The translations under genes were made by a program, and so were the position numbers. This document shows positions 9,008 to 16,631 of a stretch of 64,000 bases of DNA, piece by piece (the stretch's first letter is position 1; every line of letters starts with the position of its first letter). The notes beneath the pieces were generated by a model. That model had not been told where the DNA came from, ran no database searches, and saw only the letters and a program-made list of their open reading frames with translations. Source of the stretch: Acidobacteriaceae bacterium. Lineage in GTDB: Bacteria > Acidobacteriota > Terriglobia > Terriglobales > Acidobacteriaceae. The stretch is from contig DAIDGW010000249.1 of NCBI GenBank assembly GCA_027452245.1, positions 1-64,000 of the forward strand, written 5' to 3'.

Positions 9008-9919
9008 GTGAGTACCAACTCGTTCAGACATCTCCGCGATCTCCTCATCGTGATTGTTCTGCTTTCCAGCATTCATCCGAAGATTCAGGCCGCTACGTCC
9101 TGGAGCGTTCAAACGGAGCCGGCTCGGCTGGTCAACGGCGGACCTGTTCTGTTCCGAGTAAAGGCTCCGGCGCGATTGCAGTCGCTAACCGGATCATGGC
9201 TCGATCATCAACTGACTTTCAGCTTCGACCCTAAAACCGGGACGTGGTTTGTCCTGGCGGGCGTAAGCCTCGAAACAACACCAGGACCATATGCAATTGA
9301 ACTTGCCGGCGAGCGGGCGGCAAGATCGGGCAGCGCGCGTCTCACTTTCACTCACAAATTGCTGGTGGGAAGGGCAAAGTACCCGAAGATCAAAGTTCCT
9401 CTGTCGGTTGATACAAAGTTTACTGCTCCGACTCCGGAACAACTGCAACAGATTGATGAGGCCAAGAAGATCAAGCAAGATTATCTCAACCGGGTCACGC
9501 CAGAACGCGAATGGGCAGGCTCATTCATCACGCCGGTGAAGGCACCGCTTTCCGACGTATTCGGATCGCAACGCATCTTCAACAACAAGACGTCGAGCCC
9601 TCACCTGGGTCTCGACTTTCGCGTGCCGTCGGGAACTCCAGTGGGCGCCATGAATGATGGCATCGTACTCCTCGCACGCCCCCTATTCTTCGAGGGAAAT
9701 TTCGTTGTCATCGACCACGGACAAGGTCTCTTGAGCCTTTACCTGCATCTTTCTGATTTCAAGGTGAAGGAAGGAGAACAGGTAAAACGTGGGCAGGAAA
9801 TCGGTCTGAGCGGTGGCACGGGCCGTGCCACGGGTCCACATTTGCATGTTGCGATTCGATGGCAAGGCACTTACCTTGATCCTGCACGGCTGCTGCAACT
9901 CCGGCTACCAACCAGTTAA
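9008..9919 (+). CDS. Secreted M23 family metallopeptidase (LytM/lysostaphin type)
   Basis: M23 peptidases cut peptide cross-links of peptidoglycan, or act as inactive LytM regulators of amidases. The protein (303 aa) has a signal peptide (LLIVIVLLSSIHPKIQA) and an N-terminal beta-rich region. The LytM domain, from about residue 180, reads SPHLGLDFRVPSGTPVGAM with zinc ligands His and Asp, VIDHGQGLLSLYLHL, and GPHLHVAIRWQG with the HxH motif. All catalytic residues appear present, so it should be active in the periplasm. The start is GTG at 9008, placed just before the signal peptide; the ATG at 9003 is out of frame. It is convergent with the sigma-54 activator gene. Confidence 0.92.
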   Translation: MSTNSFRHLRDLLIVIVLLSSIHPKIQAATSWSVQTEPARLVNGGPVLFRVKAPARLQSLTGSWLDHQLTFSFDPKTGTWFVLAGVSLETTPGPYAIELAGERAARSGSARLTFTHKLLVGRAKYPKIKVPLSVDTKFTAPTPEQLQQIDEAKKIKQDYLNRVTPEREWAGSFITPVKAPLSDVFGSQRIFNNKTSSPHLGLDFRVPSGTPVGAMNDGIVLLARPLFFEGNFVVIDHGQGLLSLYLHLSDFKVKEGEQVKRGQEIGLSGGTGRATGPHLHVAIRWQGTYLDPARLLQLRLPTS

Positions 9920-11854: not shown

Positions 11855-11930
11855 GAGGGTCGCCTACTCCGTAGCGCAACTTTTTATCACAGCGGCGCCT
11901 TAATTGCACCTCTGCGGATCGAAGACCGGT

Positions 11931-11968
11931 CTATCCGTTCGGCTAGGGAATACTATCCAATCGGATAG
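11931..11968. promoter_or_regulatory. Palindromic candidate enhancer site for the sigma-54 activator
   Basis: CTATCC-N4-GGATAG at 11953-11968 is a 6-bp inverted repeat, and a further half site CTATCCG lies at 11931-11937. The palindrome is about 120 bases upstream of the sigma-54-like promoter at 12086, a usual distance for an upstream activator sequence, and about 100 bases from the activator start codon. Binding by the neighbouring activator is inference. Confidence 0.4.
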
Positions 11969-12085
11969 AGAGCACCAGGAAATACCTGCGATTCCCGTCG
12001 ATCATGTCGGTTAGAACGATTCGATAACTGCTGAAAAATCAGTATTTCCGACAGTTCCTCGCCATTGGCTGTTCTTAGACTGGAT

Positions 12086-12101
12086 TGGTACCAGGAATGC
12101 T
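12086..12101 (+). promoter_or_regulatory. Candidate sigma-54 (-24/-12) promoter
   Basis: TGGTACC-N4-ATGCT has the invariant GG (12087-12088) and GC (12099-12100) with exactly ten bases between them. It differs from the TGGCACG-N4-TTGCW consensus at three positions. It points away from the FHA-sigma-54 activator gene and towards a terminated stretch with no convincing coding sequence. A transcript would start near 12112. Confidence 0.5.
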
Positions 12102-12111
12102 CTGTATAGAT

Positions 12112-12216
12112 TGCGCATCGGCAAAAGCGATGGGGGAAGCGCTTTTAGTTTTGGCCGAGTGTGCAGGCAGGGGCTCGAAGGGACCCCCTCGTCGGGTCCT
12201 TGCCTTTTTTAATTTG
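12112..12216 (+). ncRNA. Predicted sigma-54-driven small RNA (about 100 nt)
   Basis: Between the candidate promoter and the terminator lie about 100 bases without a convincing coding sequence. The predicted transcript starts with a small hairpin (CATCG-N7-CGATG near 12116-12132), continues with a U-rich single-stranded part containing CTTTTAGTTTTGG, and ends in a terminator hairpin plus U-tract. The layout of a sigma-54 activator gene facing a sigma-54-promoted short RNA recalls LuxO/Qrr of Vibrio and GlrR/GlmY of enterobacteria. I recognise no sequence family. An open frame starting near 12085 crosses the terminator into the antisense of lhr and looks like noise. Confidence 0.4.
12176..12215 (+). 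terminator. Rho-independent terminator of the predicted small RNA
   Basis: GGACCC and GGGTCC form a stem around a short loop, with AAG/CTT extending it past a one-base bulge. TTGCC and a run of six T's follow (near 12205-12211). The T-run is on the plus strand only, so it cannot serve the lhr gene that ends at 12228 on the other strand. Confidence 0.65.
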
Positions 12217-12227
12217 TTTGAGCAAAG

Positions 12228-15200
12228 TCAGTCTCCAGCCGCAGCAATTTCCGTATCGGCAACTGCCTTAGGACTTTGCGGAAGGACGGGAACTCCGTCC
12301 CGATAGCTTACGCTGCGTCCGGAGATTGCCGGCACTCGCTCTCCCGGCACTAGAATTCCAACCAGATTCAGTGGATCAGCCGCCGACACCATTACGGTTT
12401 CGTCAGCCAGCGGCAAATTGCGCATCCCCCGCACGGACTCGACTGCGACCGGCAACGCAAACTGCTCGCCCAGAAAGCCGTCGACGAAACGACCGCCACG
12501 AATCTCCCCCCGGTCTTCCAGGCGTCGGAAACCCATCAGCAACTCCCGCCAGGGGGGTAGGTTCGATTCACGAGCCAGCACGTCGCGAAGCACGATTCCA
12601 TAGCGGCGCAGCAACATCCAGCAAGCCGCTTCCACCATGCGGGCGCGTTCCGCCGGTTCCTCCGTGTGCAGCAGCGCCCAGCGGCCTGCGCTGTGTCGCG
12701 GACGGTTGCTGCGTCCGCTGCCCTGCCCCGCCCTTCGCTTTGGATCGATTAGCGATCGCAGATTGTCGAATCCGTCGGCCGTCACCAGTCCCGCTGCAAC
12801 CAGTTGCCACAGCGCGGTTTCAATCTCGGCTTTCAGCTTGCCCGTTCCCCGCACGATATCCGCAAAGAACGATGCTCCCCGCTGCTGCAAAAAACTGAGA
12901 ACAAGTTGAGCACCGTGACTTAGCCCGGCGCTCTGCTCCATCCCCGGATGTCGCGGCGTCATCCAATCTGCCTCTTCCCGAACAAAGAACGTGATTGGCG
13001 CCACGCTGGTCGGAATCACTCGGCGCTGCCGCGGCGTGGCTTCCGCAGAACCGTCACCTTTGGACGCAGAAGAATCCAGTGTCGCGGGGTGCGGAGACAA
13101 TCGGCCCCAGCCCACTGCTCCAGTCAGACAAAGCGTGTCGAGCCACTTGGGGTCGTAATCGGTAATGCGGCGTGCCAACACCTGCCGCTCCCATGCATTC
13201 GCCGGAATTTCCAATCCCTGCAACTGGTGGAGAACTTCCAGAGTTCCACGCTCGCCTACAACCTGTGTTCCGGGCGTGATGTGCTGCCACCTTAGCAGCC
13301 ACCGCATAAATTGCGCCGCGGTCACAGGTTCGACCTGTTTACGCAGTTTTCCGACAGTCAGCCGATGGATGCGCGCCAGCAACCGCCGTTCACACCATTC
13401 ATTCTGCGTAGCAGCATCGCCTGACCGTGTTTCTGCGGGCGCAATATGGAGCGATGCAAGCGTCGAATTGCCTCTAAAGCTTCCCCGAAGAATCGTCCCG
13501 CTCGCCTCCATTCGCAGGAGAGCGGATTCGACTTCCGATGCAGGCAGTCCAAGAATTTCTCCCAGTTCAACAGCCGTCGTTGGACCCAAGTGAGACATCC
13601 AGCCGGTCACTGCGGTCAGCAGAACTGCATCGCGTGTCGCTACTGCGGACTCGACATCGGGCGCCTTTCGCTCGAACCTGGCATCTGGAAATAGCGTCTG
13701 AAAACTCTTTGCGCGCTCCGCAGCGGCCCAGTAACGCCGCCCTTTATACCAAGCCTCGGTGGCGCGTTGCTCGCTCACAAGTCTTTCGAAATAAGGGTTC
13801 CAACGTGCGATATTTCTAAACAATGCCGCGCCGTATTCCAATGAAGAAGTTTGAGTCCTGTCGAACGAATCGGCCGGCAACGCGACCAACGTATGCAGTA
13901 CATCATGTAATTCGTCAGGGTCGCGGACGTCCGGCCACGCCTCCTGTTGTACCTGCTCAATCGCCTCGGGATCGAGTCTTCCCACTTCCTGCAAAACCGA
14001 TTCCGGCAGCACCCGCCGCATCTCGACCGCACGCGCCCTGCGCTCTTCAAGCGGTGCGTCGTCCAGATACGCATAAGGATTCGCATTGAGAATTTCATGC
14101 GAGAACTGCGATGGAACCGGCGTATCCACAGCAAGAATTCGAATTTCTCCCGACGCGATTGCGCGCAGTACAGACCTCAGACCTTCGATATCCATGGCTT
14201 CGGTCAGAACATCTTTCATGACCTCGTGAACGAGGGGATGGTCGGGAATCTTGCGTTCGCCTTCGATATTTTCAAAGCAAGCTGCCGCATCCGGGAATAC
14301 CGAGGCCAGCAAGTCGTCCGAGCGTATGCGTTGGATCTGCGGCGGAACTTTCTTGCCATTTTGGAAGCGCAGCAAAGCGAGCGCGCGGTTCGCATCCCAG
14401 CGCCAGCGTGTCCCGAAGATGGGAGAATCCAGCACCGCCTGCTCCAGGATCGACTGCACCGTCTCCGCCTGCAAAAATCGAAAAACATCGGCCAGCGGGA
14501 AACTGTGCTGTTCGGCCAGCGCGATGTTTAATCCGTTGTCAGTGGCCGCCGCTTGCAACTCGAAATTGAAGCCTACGCAGAACCTTTTGCGCAGCGACAA
14601 TCCCCAGGCTTTGTTGATTCGCCCGCCGAACGGGGCATGGATCACCAACTGCATGCCGCCGCCTTCATCGAAAAAGCGCTCGGCAATGACCGTCGTCTGT
14701 GTCGGGACAGCGCCAAGCACAGCGCGCCCTTGCAGAATGTATTCGATGGCTTGTTCAGCACCGGAATCATCCAGCCCGCTTTCCTGCTTTAGCCACGAAA
14801 CTGCCGCGGACACCTCCGGCTGCGTCGCGGAAAATCCTACCGGCGATGTATGCGGCAGCATTTCACTGATCTTCTCCCGCAGTGCTCCGACGTGCTCCGA
14901 CAATTCTTCGGTTCGCGATGGAGCTTCGCCGCGCCAGAACGGCACGCTCGGCGGTGCGCCATGCGCGTCGTGCACCAGCATGCGTCCGGAATTCGTCTCG
15001 ATGCGGTGGATCATCCACGACGTGTTGCCCAGCAGCATGATGTCGCCGCGATTGCTCTCGACTGCAAAATCCTCATCCACCGTACCGACCATAGCGCCGT
15101 CCGGTTCGGCGACCACCGTATAAAGCGAATTGTCGGGGATTGCGCCTCCGCTGGTGATGGCTGCCAAACGCGCTCCGCGACGCCCCCGCAGCTTGCGATT

Positions 15201-16631
15201 CACGCGATCGCGATGCACATACGCGCCATATCGCCCGCGACGCGCGGCAATTCCTTCCGACAACATTTCCAGAACCGATTCGTAAACTTCACGGCTGAGA
15301 TTCCGGTAGGGATAAGCGCGCTTCACCAACGCAAACAGCTCATCCTCGTCCCACTCTTCCGCCGAGCACGCAGCCACGATCTGCTGCGCCAGTACATCAA
15401 CCGGGGATTCCGGAATAATGAGCTGATCCAGATCTCCGTGCTGAATCGCCCGGACCAGCGCCGCGCACTCCAGCAGGTCGTCGCGCGTCGTAGCGACGAA
15501 GCGTCCTTTGGGAATGGCGCCGCGCCAGTGTCCCGAGCGGCCGATTCGCTGCAAGCCCACAGCGATCGAGCGCGGAGAATTAATCTGCACCACCAGATCG
15601 ACCGTTCCGACATCGATGCCCAATTCCAGTGAAGCCGTCGCGACCAGCACGCGAATCTGGCCTTCTTTCAATTTTTTCTCTGCAGCTAAGCGCAATTTGC
15701 GCGACAAACTGCCATGATGCGCGGCAACGTTCTCTTCGCCCATGCGTTCGCCGAGGTGATGCGCGATCCGTTCCGCAAATCTCCGCGTATTCACGAACAC
15801 CAGCGTCGACCGGTGCTGCTCCACCAGCGCGACCAGCCGGTTGTAAATCTCGTCCCACATCTCGTTCGACGCCACCGGGCCCAGTGGCATGGGGGGAACT
15901 TCGATTGCCAGATCCATCTCGCGCTTATGCCCAACATTGACGATCACAGGATTCGGGCGCGAGTTCCCCGTCAGGAAATGCGCCACCTGCTCTATCGGCT
16001 TCTGCGTCGCCGAAAGCCCAATCCGCACCGGACGCCGGTGCGTCAACGCATCCAGCCGCTCCAGCGACAAGGTAAGATGTGCTCCGCGCTTGTCATCCGC
16101 CACGGCATGGATTTCGTCGACAATCACTGTCTCGACATCGCGCAGAACTGCCCGGCTCTTATCCGCGGTCAGCAGTATGTAAAGCGATTCGGGAGTGGTG
16201 ACCAGAATATGCGGCGGCCGCTTCAGCATGGCCCGCCGCTCGTGCATGAGCGTGTCACCGGTGCGCACCGCCGTGCGAATCTCCGGCATCAGCAGGCCAC
16301 GCTCGTTCGCCATCCCCAGAATTTCGCCCAGGGGAATTTCGAGATTCTTCTGGATGTCGTTGCCCAGCGCCTTCAGCGGAGAAACATAAAGAACTTCGGT
16401 CCGGTCAGATAGTTCTCCCGCCAACGACTTTCGAACCAGCCGGTCGATGCAGGCAAGAAACGCGGCCAAAGTCTTGCCGGATCCGGTGGGAGCCGAAATT
16501 AAGGTCGTGCGCCCTGCCAGAATGTGCGGCCATCCTTGCTCCTGTGGCTCAGTCGGAGTGCCGAACTTATGGACAAACCACTCCGCGACTAAAGGATGGG
16601 CCCAGGCCAAAGACGCAGGAGGGAACGGCAT
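12228..16631 (-). CDS. lhr: Lhr family ATP-dependent helicase (full length, 1467 aa)
   Basis: Lhr is a superfamily 2 3'-5' DNA helicase linked to DNA repair. The N-terminal half is the Lhr core: Walker A APTGSGKT (47-54), SPLKALGNDI, TTPESLY, the DEIH box (172-175), then the second RecA domain with VNTRRFAERIAHHL, VATASLELGIDVG and QRIGRSGHWRG. A winged helix and the Lhr-specific domain follow. The C-terminal 600 residues correspond to the extension found in long bacterial Lhr (about 1500 aa in E. coli) and absent from Lhr-core proteins. A short low-complexity stretch near SSASKGDGSAEATPR sits in that extension. The gene is monocistronic as far as can be seen. Confidence 0.95.
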   Translation of the reverse strand: MPFPPASLAWAHPLVAEWFVHKFGTPTEPQEQGWPHILAGRTTLISAPTGSGKTLAAFLACIDRLVRKSLAGELSDRTEVLYVSPLKALGNDIQKNLEIPLGEILGMANERGLLMPEIRTAVRTGDTLMHERRAMLKRPPHILVTTPESLYILLTADKSRAVLRDVETVIVDEIHAVADDKRGAHLTLSLERLDALTHRRPVRIGLSATQKPIEQVAHFLTGNSRPNPVIVNVGHKREMDLAIEVPPMPLGPVASNEMWDEIYNRLVALVEQHRSTLVFVNTRRFAERIAHHLGERMGEENVAAHHGSLSRKLRLAAEKKLKEGQIRVLVATASLELGIDVGTVDLVVQINSPRSIAVGLQRIGRSGHWRGAIPKGRFVATTRDDLLECAALVRAIQHGDLDQLIIPESPVDVLAQQIVAACSAEEWDEDELFALVKRAYPYRNLSREVYESVLEMLSEGIAARRGRYGAYVHRDRVNRKLRGRRGARLAAITSGGAIPDNSLYTVVAEPDGAMVGTVDEDFAVESNRGDIMLLGNTSWMIHRIETNSGRMLVHDAHGAPPSVPFWRGEAPSRTEELSEHVGALREKISEMLPHTSPVGFSATQPEVSAAVSWLKQESGLDDSGAEQAIEYILQGRAVLGAVPTQTTVIAERFFDEGGGMQLVIHAPFGGRINKAWGLSLRKRFCVGFNFELQAAATDNGLNIALAEQHSFPLADVFRFLQAETVQSILEQAVLDSPIFGTRWRWDANRALALLRFQNGKKVPPQIQRIRSDDLLASVFPDAAACFENIEGERKIPDHPLVHEVMKDVLTEAMDIEGLRSVLRAIASGEIRILAVDTPVPSQFSHEILNANPYAYLDDAPLEERRARAVEMRRVLPESVLQEVGRLDPEAIEQVQQEAWPDVRDPDELHDVLHTLVALPADSFDRTQTSSLEYGAALFRNIARWNPYFERLVSEQRATEAWYKGRRYWAAAERAKSFQTLFPDARFERKAPDVESAVATRDAVLLTAVTGWMSHLGPTTAVELGEILGLPASEVESALLRMEASGTILRGSFRGNSTLASLHIAPAETRSGDAATQNEWCERRLLARIHRLTVGKLRKQVEPVTAAQFMRWLLRWQHITPGTQVVGERGTLEVLHQLQGLEIPANAWERQVLARRITDYDPKWLDTLCLTGAVGWGRLSPHPATLDSSASKGDGSAEATPRQRRVIPTSVAPITFFVREEADWMTPRHPGMEQSAGLSHGAQLVLSFLQQRGASFFADIVRGTGKLKAEIETALWQLVAAGLVTADGFDNLRSLIDPKRRAGQGSGRSNRPRHSAGRWALLHTEEPAERARMVEAACWMLLRRYGIVLRDVLARESNLPPWRELLMGFRRLEDRGEIRGGRFVDGFLGEQFALPVAVESVRGMRNLPLADETVMVSAADPLNLVGILVPGERVPAISGRSVSYRDGVPVLPQSPKAVADTEIAAAGD

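Follow-up and report, generated by a model that had tools for sequence, protein, structure and literature searches.

The window analysed here is a stretch of 64,000 nucleotides from an Acidobacteriaceae bacterium (contig DAIDGW010000249.1 of assembly GCA_027452245.1). It holds a gene for a predicted sigma-54 activator with FHA and GAF domains, and the spacer ahead of this gene carries two enhancer-like dyads, a predicted -24/-12 promoter and a predicted small RNA gene, directed away from the activator (Table 1). The beginning of the RNA was placed from the promoter, 12 nt past the -12 C, and its end from the T-run. The Lhr-type helicase gene on the far side of the spacer adjoins the RNA in many relatives.

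Table 1. Features of the activator and small RNA locus (positions in the window)
Feature	Position	Strand	Remarks
M23 peptidase, neighbour	9008..9919	+	synteny marker
Predicted FHA-GAF-AAA+-HTH_8 sigma-54 activator (bacterial enhancer-binding protein), 644 aa	9920..11854	-	Pfam domains and conserved residues
Spacer between activator and Lhr, 373 bases	11855-12227		order on + strand: two dyads, promoter, RNA of about 98 bases
Distal enhancer dyad TATCCGTTCGGCTA	11932-11945	.	TATCCG-N2-CGGATA, matches at 11 of 12 positions
Proximal enhancer dyad TATCCAATCGGATA	11954-11967	.	TATCCG-N2-CGGATA, matches at 11 of 12 positions
Predicted sigma-54 -24/-12 promoter TTGGTACCAGGAATGCT	12085-12101	+	GG 12087-12088, N10, GC 12099-12100
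Small RNA gene, about 98 nt	about 12112-12210	+	conservation and covariance models
Stem-loop 1, loop AUGGGGGAAG	12115..12164	+	outer stem about 12115-12122 with 12153-12164
Stem-loop 1 inner stem AAAGCG/CGCUUU	12124-12129 with 12140-12145	+	
Stem-loop 2 / intrinsic terminator	12167..12210	+	loop CCCCCUC 12184-12190; T-run 12205-12210 (six T)
Lhr-type helicase, convergent neighbour	12228..16631	-	synteny marker, outside the module

The elements read in this spacer by the preliminary description were recovered. The palindrome was found and is one member of the two tandem dyads, and the -24/-12 element was confirmed with its exact GG-N10-GC spacing. The proposed terminator was located as a hairpin followed by the T-run, and its stem shows compensatory changes in relatives. 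A scan with a terminator consensus, which is weak taken alone, gave 3 sites in 2 kb against 1.8 expected. The fold of the RNA region as a single sequence was better than that of shuffled sequences, with a z value of -4.24 and 1 of 200 shuffles equally good.

A DNA search of 101 genomes identified a conserved element at window positions 12118-12210 within the same genus, and a covariance model was built from 38 sequences. The model detected the RNA in 39 of the 45 genus genomes, and in all 20 of those with at least 90% completeness and at most 5% contamination. Three of the six genomes without it (G022, G024 and G044) possessed an activator gene that reached the contig end before the RNA position, so the RNA position was not assembled there. 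The other three (G001, G013 and G028) likewise gave no activator match at E <= 1e-110. Across the family, the RNA was found in 67 of 398 sampled genomes, representing 19 of 79 genera. The search of the phylum gave matches at E <= 0.1 in 18 of 396 genomes, with the strong matches all within the family, and a search of the class with a second model gave 12 of 399 genomes, every one a family member. The weak phylum matches of the first model (E 2.5e-4 to 0.1) were left uncounted and were inspected in part. By eye, those in G243 and G176 (outside the family) and in G438, G227 and G268 (inside it) had neither both loops together nor a promoter, and no activator, M23 or Lhr match was found in any of the weak-match loci L108-L113. 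Ten further weak-match genomes of the phylum list and the weak second matches that the genus search gave in G025, G037 and G018 lay outside this inspection.

In Rfam, no match at the gathering score was obtained for the window spacer or for six related loci. The scan of the window spacer, with matches to E 5, gave three sub-threshold candidates, none of them Qrr: Xoo2 (16.9 bits), ceN39 (15.9 bits) and ctRNA_pGA1 (15.6 bits), against gathering scores of 45, 35 and 45, respectively. They were rejected, and there was no GlmY/GlmZ match. With no match in Rfam, the RNA appears to represent a new and well-supported family. Moreover, no description of the module was found in the open-access literature searched, a search that subscription papers lay outside.

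Reading of the RNA loci in all 67 genomes gave 69 RNA rows. Row counts leave out L032 (the same locus as L056), L057 (no RNA) and a partial copy on contig C62 of G031. In an alignment of 27 rows from eight genera, 94.9% of the cells formed standard pairs, with five loop-loop pairs counted. Twelve pairs were changed on both sides, and 66 such cells were found compared with 22.9 in shuffles. The covariation support sits in the outer stem of stem-loop 1 and in the terminator stem. Neither the inner stem nor the loop-loop pairing gains support from covariation, as both are almost invariant. A T-run was detected by a crude test in 62 of the 69 rows. With its own promoter, a conserved and structured non-coding RNA and a terminator, the predicted anatomy fits that of an intrinsically terminated small RNA.

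The two loops were strongly conserved. The loop of stem-loop 1 contained GGGGA in 68 of 69 rows, and loop 2 read CCCCCUC in 60 of 69; its C-run was shorter or changed in eight rows and absent in one. The row that lacks the C-rich loop is the first of the two tandem copies in G524; as judged by eye, the first copy in G569 lacks it as well. In both genomes (loci L161 and L160, respectively) the RNAs lie as a tandem pair behind a single -24/-12 element, and the first copies keep the G-run and carry GGAG- or GAGG-like loops in place of the C-rich one. A second RNA copy in G031 (L106, C62:26527-26630) has only stem-loop 2 recognisable; inspection by eye showed no -24/-12 element there, and the 17 kb examined gave no match to the activator. 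This copy and L162 possess the C-rich loop, and stem-loop 1 is unrecognisable in both. Each loop was mostly unpaired in just 71% of 66 RNAs.

The activator was matched by the Pfam domains FHA, GAF, Sigma54_activat, AAA_lid_14 and HTH_8, and a receiver domain was absent from its Pfam matches. Among its orthologs, the Walker A motif was present in 49 of 49 rows, and of the 47 rows covering the place of the GAFTGA loop, 43 read GAFTGA and four GSFTGA. An AAA+ domain with Walker A, a GAFTGA loop and a DNA-binding HTH mark the protein as a predicted bacterial enhancer-binding protein. In addition, the key FHA residues of phosphothreonine readers (GR, SxxH and NG) are kept: GR in 48 of 48 rows, SRxH in 47 of 48 (one SKQH) and SRNGT in 47 of 48 (one SRNQT). 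Binding of phosphothreonine is a prediction from these residues. Enhancer-binding proteins that join an FHA domain to a sigma-54 activator have reportedly been found in Myxococcus by Jelsbak et al. in 2005.

A search of named genomes for the activator gave 12 loci with an identity of at most 50%. In the family search, the RNA was present at all ten activator loci with at least 58% identity over the near-full protein (L114-L123). L126 and L129 are activator loci with partial synteny in which no RNA core was seen. In L129 (G056), the activator lies between M23- and Lhr-like genes; some 282 nt ahead of its start there is a -24/-12 match, and the long hairpin behind this match is unrelated and may be another RNA. 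In the loci L124, L125, L131, L134-L136 and L188, which encode related FHA-GAF-AAA+ activators, a -24/-12-like site in divergent orientation lies about 208-260 nt from the activator start, and several of these loci have palindromes upstream. At these loci the site precedes the gene of a small secreted-looking protein, not this RNA. The proteins have 137-143 aa in five loci; the frame in L124 has 58 aa, and the start in L188 was set by eye. They share an ADVPF/ANVPF-type motif and an LPAG motif. The place taken by an mRNA in these cousin activators is thus occupied by an RNA in the RNA-linked subfamily.

The promoter and the dyads were compared between RNA loci with and without an adjacent activator, using 65 of the 69 rows (L144, L145, L148 and the second tandem copy of L161 were left out, and in L160 the promoter was sought ahead of the first of its two tandem RNAs). 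A locus was counted as having the activator when the N-terminus was present, and many of these 50 loci hold a partial activator because of contig ends or short flanks. TGG-N9-TGC was found ahead of the RNA in 50 of 50 loci with the adjacent N-terminus. The tandem TATCCG-N2-CGGATA dyads were likewise present in 50 of 50, with at least 9 of 12 positions matched in each and 18-24 bp between them. In 49 of the 50, the dyads were spaced by 19-22 bp and the nearer one began 111-146 bp before the -24 element. Paired dyads occurred in 49 of 49 activator regions, which had been preselected for -24/-12; dinucleotide shuffling produced them in 1 of 4900 cases. TGG-N9-TGC by itself was seen in 418 of 9800 shuffled windows of 72 nt.

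The 15 RNA loci without an adjacent activator, in which M23 lies 33-299 nt before the RNA, differed: a -24/-12 match was found in one of them and the dyad pair in none. The exception, L147 of G521, keeps the match and has neither the adjacent activator nor the dyad pair. In 13 of the 15 genomes there was no activator match anywhere at E <= 1e-110; G038 and G057, counted as activator-less, have an activator relative with 52-54% identity elsewhere in the genome. The loci are related, and L010 and L011 are nearly identical; Fisher p-values for the comparison of 50 with 15 overstate independence, and a tree of Lhr is the better control. Many of the genomes compared are fragmented assemblies. In L145 and L148, the activator is cut by contig ends and the promoter and dyads are present. 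In L144 (G519), the activator is reduced to AAA+ and HTH without FHA and GAF, the dyads are kept, and the promoter reads only CGG-N10-GC.

At one mismatch, the dyad occurred at 9 places in the host genome (control 7). Two of them are those of this locus, and no other two lie together. Because the close pair is confined to this locus at that stringency, the RNA looks like a dedicated target; more degenerate dyad pairs may exist elsewhere in the host genome. Six of the seven single dyads found elsewhere had no TGG-N9-TGC at 60-320 bases on either side. The remaining one (L169) had it at +86, as will happen now and then by chance, with 71 bases examined on one side. Furthermore, RpoN is encoded in the host genome, its DNA-binding domain scoring 204 bits. 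The GG-N10-GC element, the enhancer upstream and the presence of RpoN together point to a sigma-54 promoter, as judged from the DNA. The preliminary description had made its reading depend on whether relatives with the activator also conserve the promoter and the terminator. They do: the promoter and the dyad pair were each present in 50 of 50 loci, and the terminator stem showed compensatory changes. Its reading of the locus as an activator-driven small RNA is supported by the same results.

Since activator, dyads and promoter are present or absent together, a dedicated activator-small RNA module is proposed, and we regard it as very probable that in this two-gene unit the activator drives the RNA. 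The drive step was inferred from the anatomy and from this linked presence and absence. The activator would bind the two tandem dyads, the nearer lying 111-146 bp upstream of -24, and would loop from there to the RpoN-RNA polymerase at -24/-12, which would then make the RNA of about 98 nt that ends at the intrinsic terminator. On/off control would come from the sensor domains, with FHA presumably recognising a phosphothreonine protein and GAF a ligand. The RNA most likely pairs in trans, with the C-rich terminator loop CCCCCUC(A) as candidate seed. This loop is complementary to G-rich Shine-Dalgarno regions, and Hfq, for which the host genome gave three matches over the cut-off, is probably involved. 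Pairing of the C-rich loop with the G-rich loop of stem-loop 1 is feasible and may restrain the seed. For the pairing step, action in trans by base pairing is favoured by somewhat better than an even chance.

A reading that keeps the module and changes only this last step is that the RNA works chiefly through pairing between its loops, intramolecular or intermolecular, or through a protein that it binds, rather than as an antisense to mRNAs. It agrees with the GGGGG and CCCCC loops, which are complementary and nearly invariant in the 27 aligned rows. However, the survival of the C-rich loop where stem-loop 1 is unrecognisable, in L162 and in the promoterless G031 copy, favours an outside partner. 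An internal lock is also disfavoured by the leading tandem copies in G524 and G569, which keep the G-run without the C-rich loop. The same two copies, together with the eight of 69 rows in which the C-rich loop is altered, also argue against the C-rich loop as a universal seed. As for a protein decoy, its best-known class is disfavoured, because CsrA was unmatched in the host genome (97.6% complete). On balance, this reading is rather unlikely.

Other alternatives concern the module itself. That the activator does not control the RNA and lies beside it by accident would fit the -24/-12 match kept without an activator in L147. It is hard to reconcile with the contrast between the two sets of loci (-24/-12 in 50/50 vs 1/15, dyad pair in 50/50 vs 0/15), with at least four separate changes of activator presence and with the confinement of the close dyad pair to this locus, and is very unlikely. 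A similarly low probability is given to a cis element, which could serve the convergent Lhr gene as antisense RNA or as terminator, or could be the leader of the activator. The element does lie between the Lhr stop and the activator start, with the RNA directed at the 3' end of Lhr, but only on the + strand of the window is the hairpin followed by the T-run, RNA and activator occur in G053 with no Lhr match in the stretch examined, and the RNA occurs without the activator in 15 loci. The transcript could also be the mRNA of a small protein: AUG GGG GAA GCG CUU in stem-loop 1 opens a short frame in many members of the genus, and the related activators adjoin genes of small secreted-looking proteins with a similarly placed promoter. 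Yet the frame from this AUG is not kept among the 62 of 69 rows tested. The AUG is replaced by ACG, AUA, UCG, UUG, CGU or other triplets in many rows, and the frames at its position span 5 to 100 codons. In addition, the spacers between the hairpins vary in length across relatives, and for any of the three forward frames, stops were seen in 24 to 27 of 68 related rows, which upholds the earlier claim that these roughly 100 bases are non-coding. A small-protein mRNA is considered very unlikely.

The history of the module was examined on the Lhr tree (38 rows). It requires five changes of activator presence, and at least four are forced by well supported branches. The tree was rooted at its midpoint just to draw it, and which came first, gain or loss, is thus a matter of inference. 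In G038, inside the genus, the activator is gone from the locus, the GC of the -12 element reads AC and the dyads are gone. As the tree is drawn, G038, the pair of G516 and G563, and G057 look like losses, all of them without promoter and dyads. The activator is missing from two outer clades, the genera g258 and g257. In g258, the RNA is preceded by a promoter-like pair TTGCG / TATA[TG]T in 6 of 6 loci. In the same six loci (L152, L154, L156, L157, L158 and L159), an inverted repeat GCAACA-N12-TGTTGC overlaps the sigma-70-like -35 element, which suggests another regulator of the same RNA. Under the midpoint root, the RNA would be older than its sigma-54 control. In G053 (L107/L167), activator, dyads, promoter and RNA are grouped at one place, and the stretch examined gave no match to M23 or Lhr, as if the module had moved as a unit.

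In the outer lineages the RNA follows M23 and has no activator beside it, and one of these lineages shows a sigma-70-like promoter. An RNA gene that was already there may thus have been captured by the activator. In the fuller form of this idea, an FHA-type activator, linked to Ser/Thr kinases, captured a sigma-70-driven small RNA gene by way of its own enhancer and -24/-12 element; the resulting kinase-to-small RNA switch was later lost several times, and the complementary loops may lock the C-rich seed. This scenario is put forward tentatively, its chances being somewhat short of even.

Small RNAs controlled by a sigma-54 activator have been studied in other bacteria. GlmY of enterobacteria is a sigma-54-dependent small RNA under the NtrC-type activator GlrR, a two-component response regulator. 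For the RNA described here, Rfam gave no match to GlmY. The results do not support placing it with Qrr or GlmY, as there is no Rfam match and the activator has no receiver domain. In Vibrio, qrr1 lies directly upstream of luxO in the opposite orientation, as described in PMC8043402, and the present locus resembles it in that a sigma-54 activator gene has a divergent sigma-54-dependent small RNA immediately upstream. The comparison with LuxO/Qrr made in the preliminary description is thus apt for the layout and the class of mechanism. However, LuxO is described as a response regulator of the NtrC kind (PMC11407668), whereas the activator here has FHA and GAF domains without a receiver match, and its RNA is unmatched in Rfam. 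Furthermore, the Pxr small RNA of Myxococcus, about 108 nt, lies beside the gene of the sigma-54 response regulator PxrR (Nla19) (PMC5568312, PMC10217877). According to these reports, it shares with the present RNA a predicted sigma-54 promoter, kept synteny, a fold of several stem-loops and paralogs in some lineages. In the account given there, Pxr is located downstream of its regulator, which pairs with a histidine kinase, whereas the genes here diverge and the sensor is FHA-GAF; the likeness rests on layout, the RNA sequences being uncompared. By its anatomy, the module may be described as resembling LuxO/Qrr1 and PxrR/Pxr, with an FHA sensor and what appears to be a new RNA family.

Few small RNAs are annotated in acidobacteria, and Table 1 of PMC9029176 lists 4 distinct ones. 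At this locus, the regulator, enhancer, promoter and terminator of a new RNA family are all legible from sequence, and natural losses tie the activator, the enhancer and the promoter together. The module therefore makes two questions testable: whether Ser/Thr-phosphorylation signalling feeds RNA-based control, and whether a small RNA gene switched its sigma factor in evolution.
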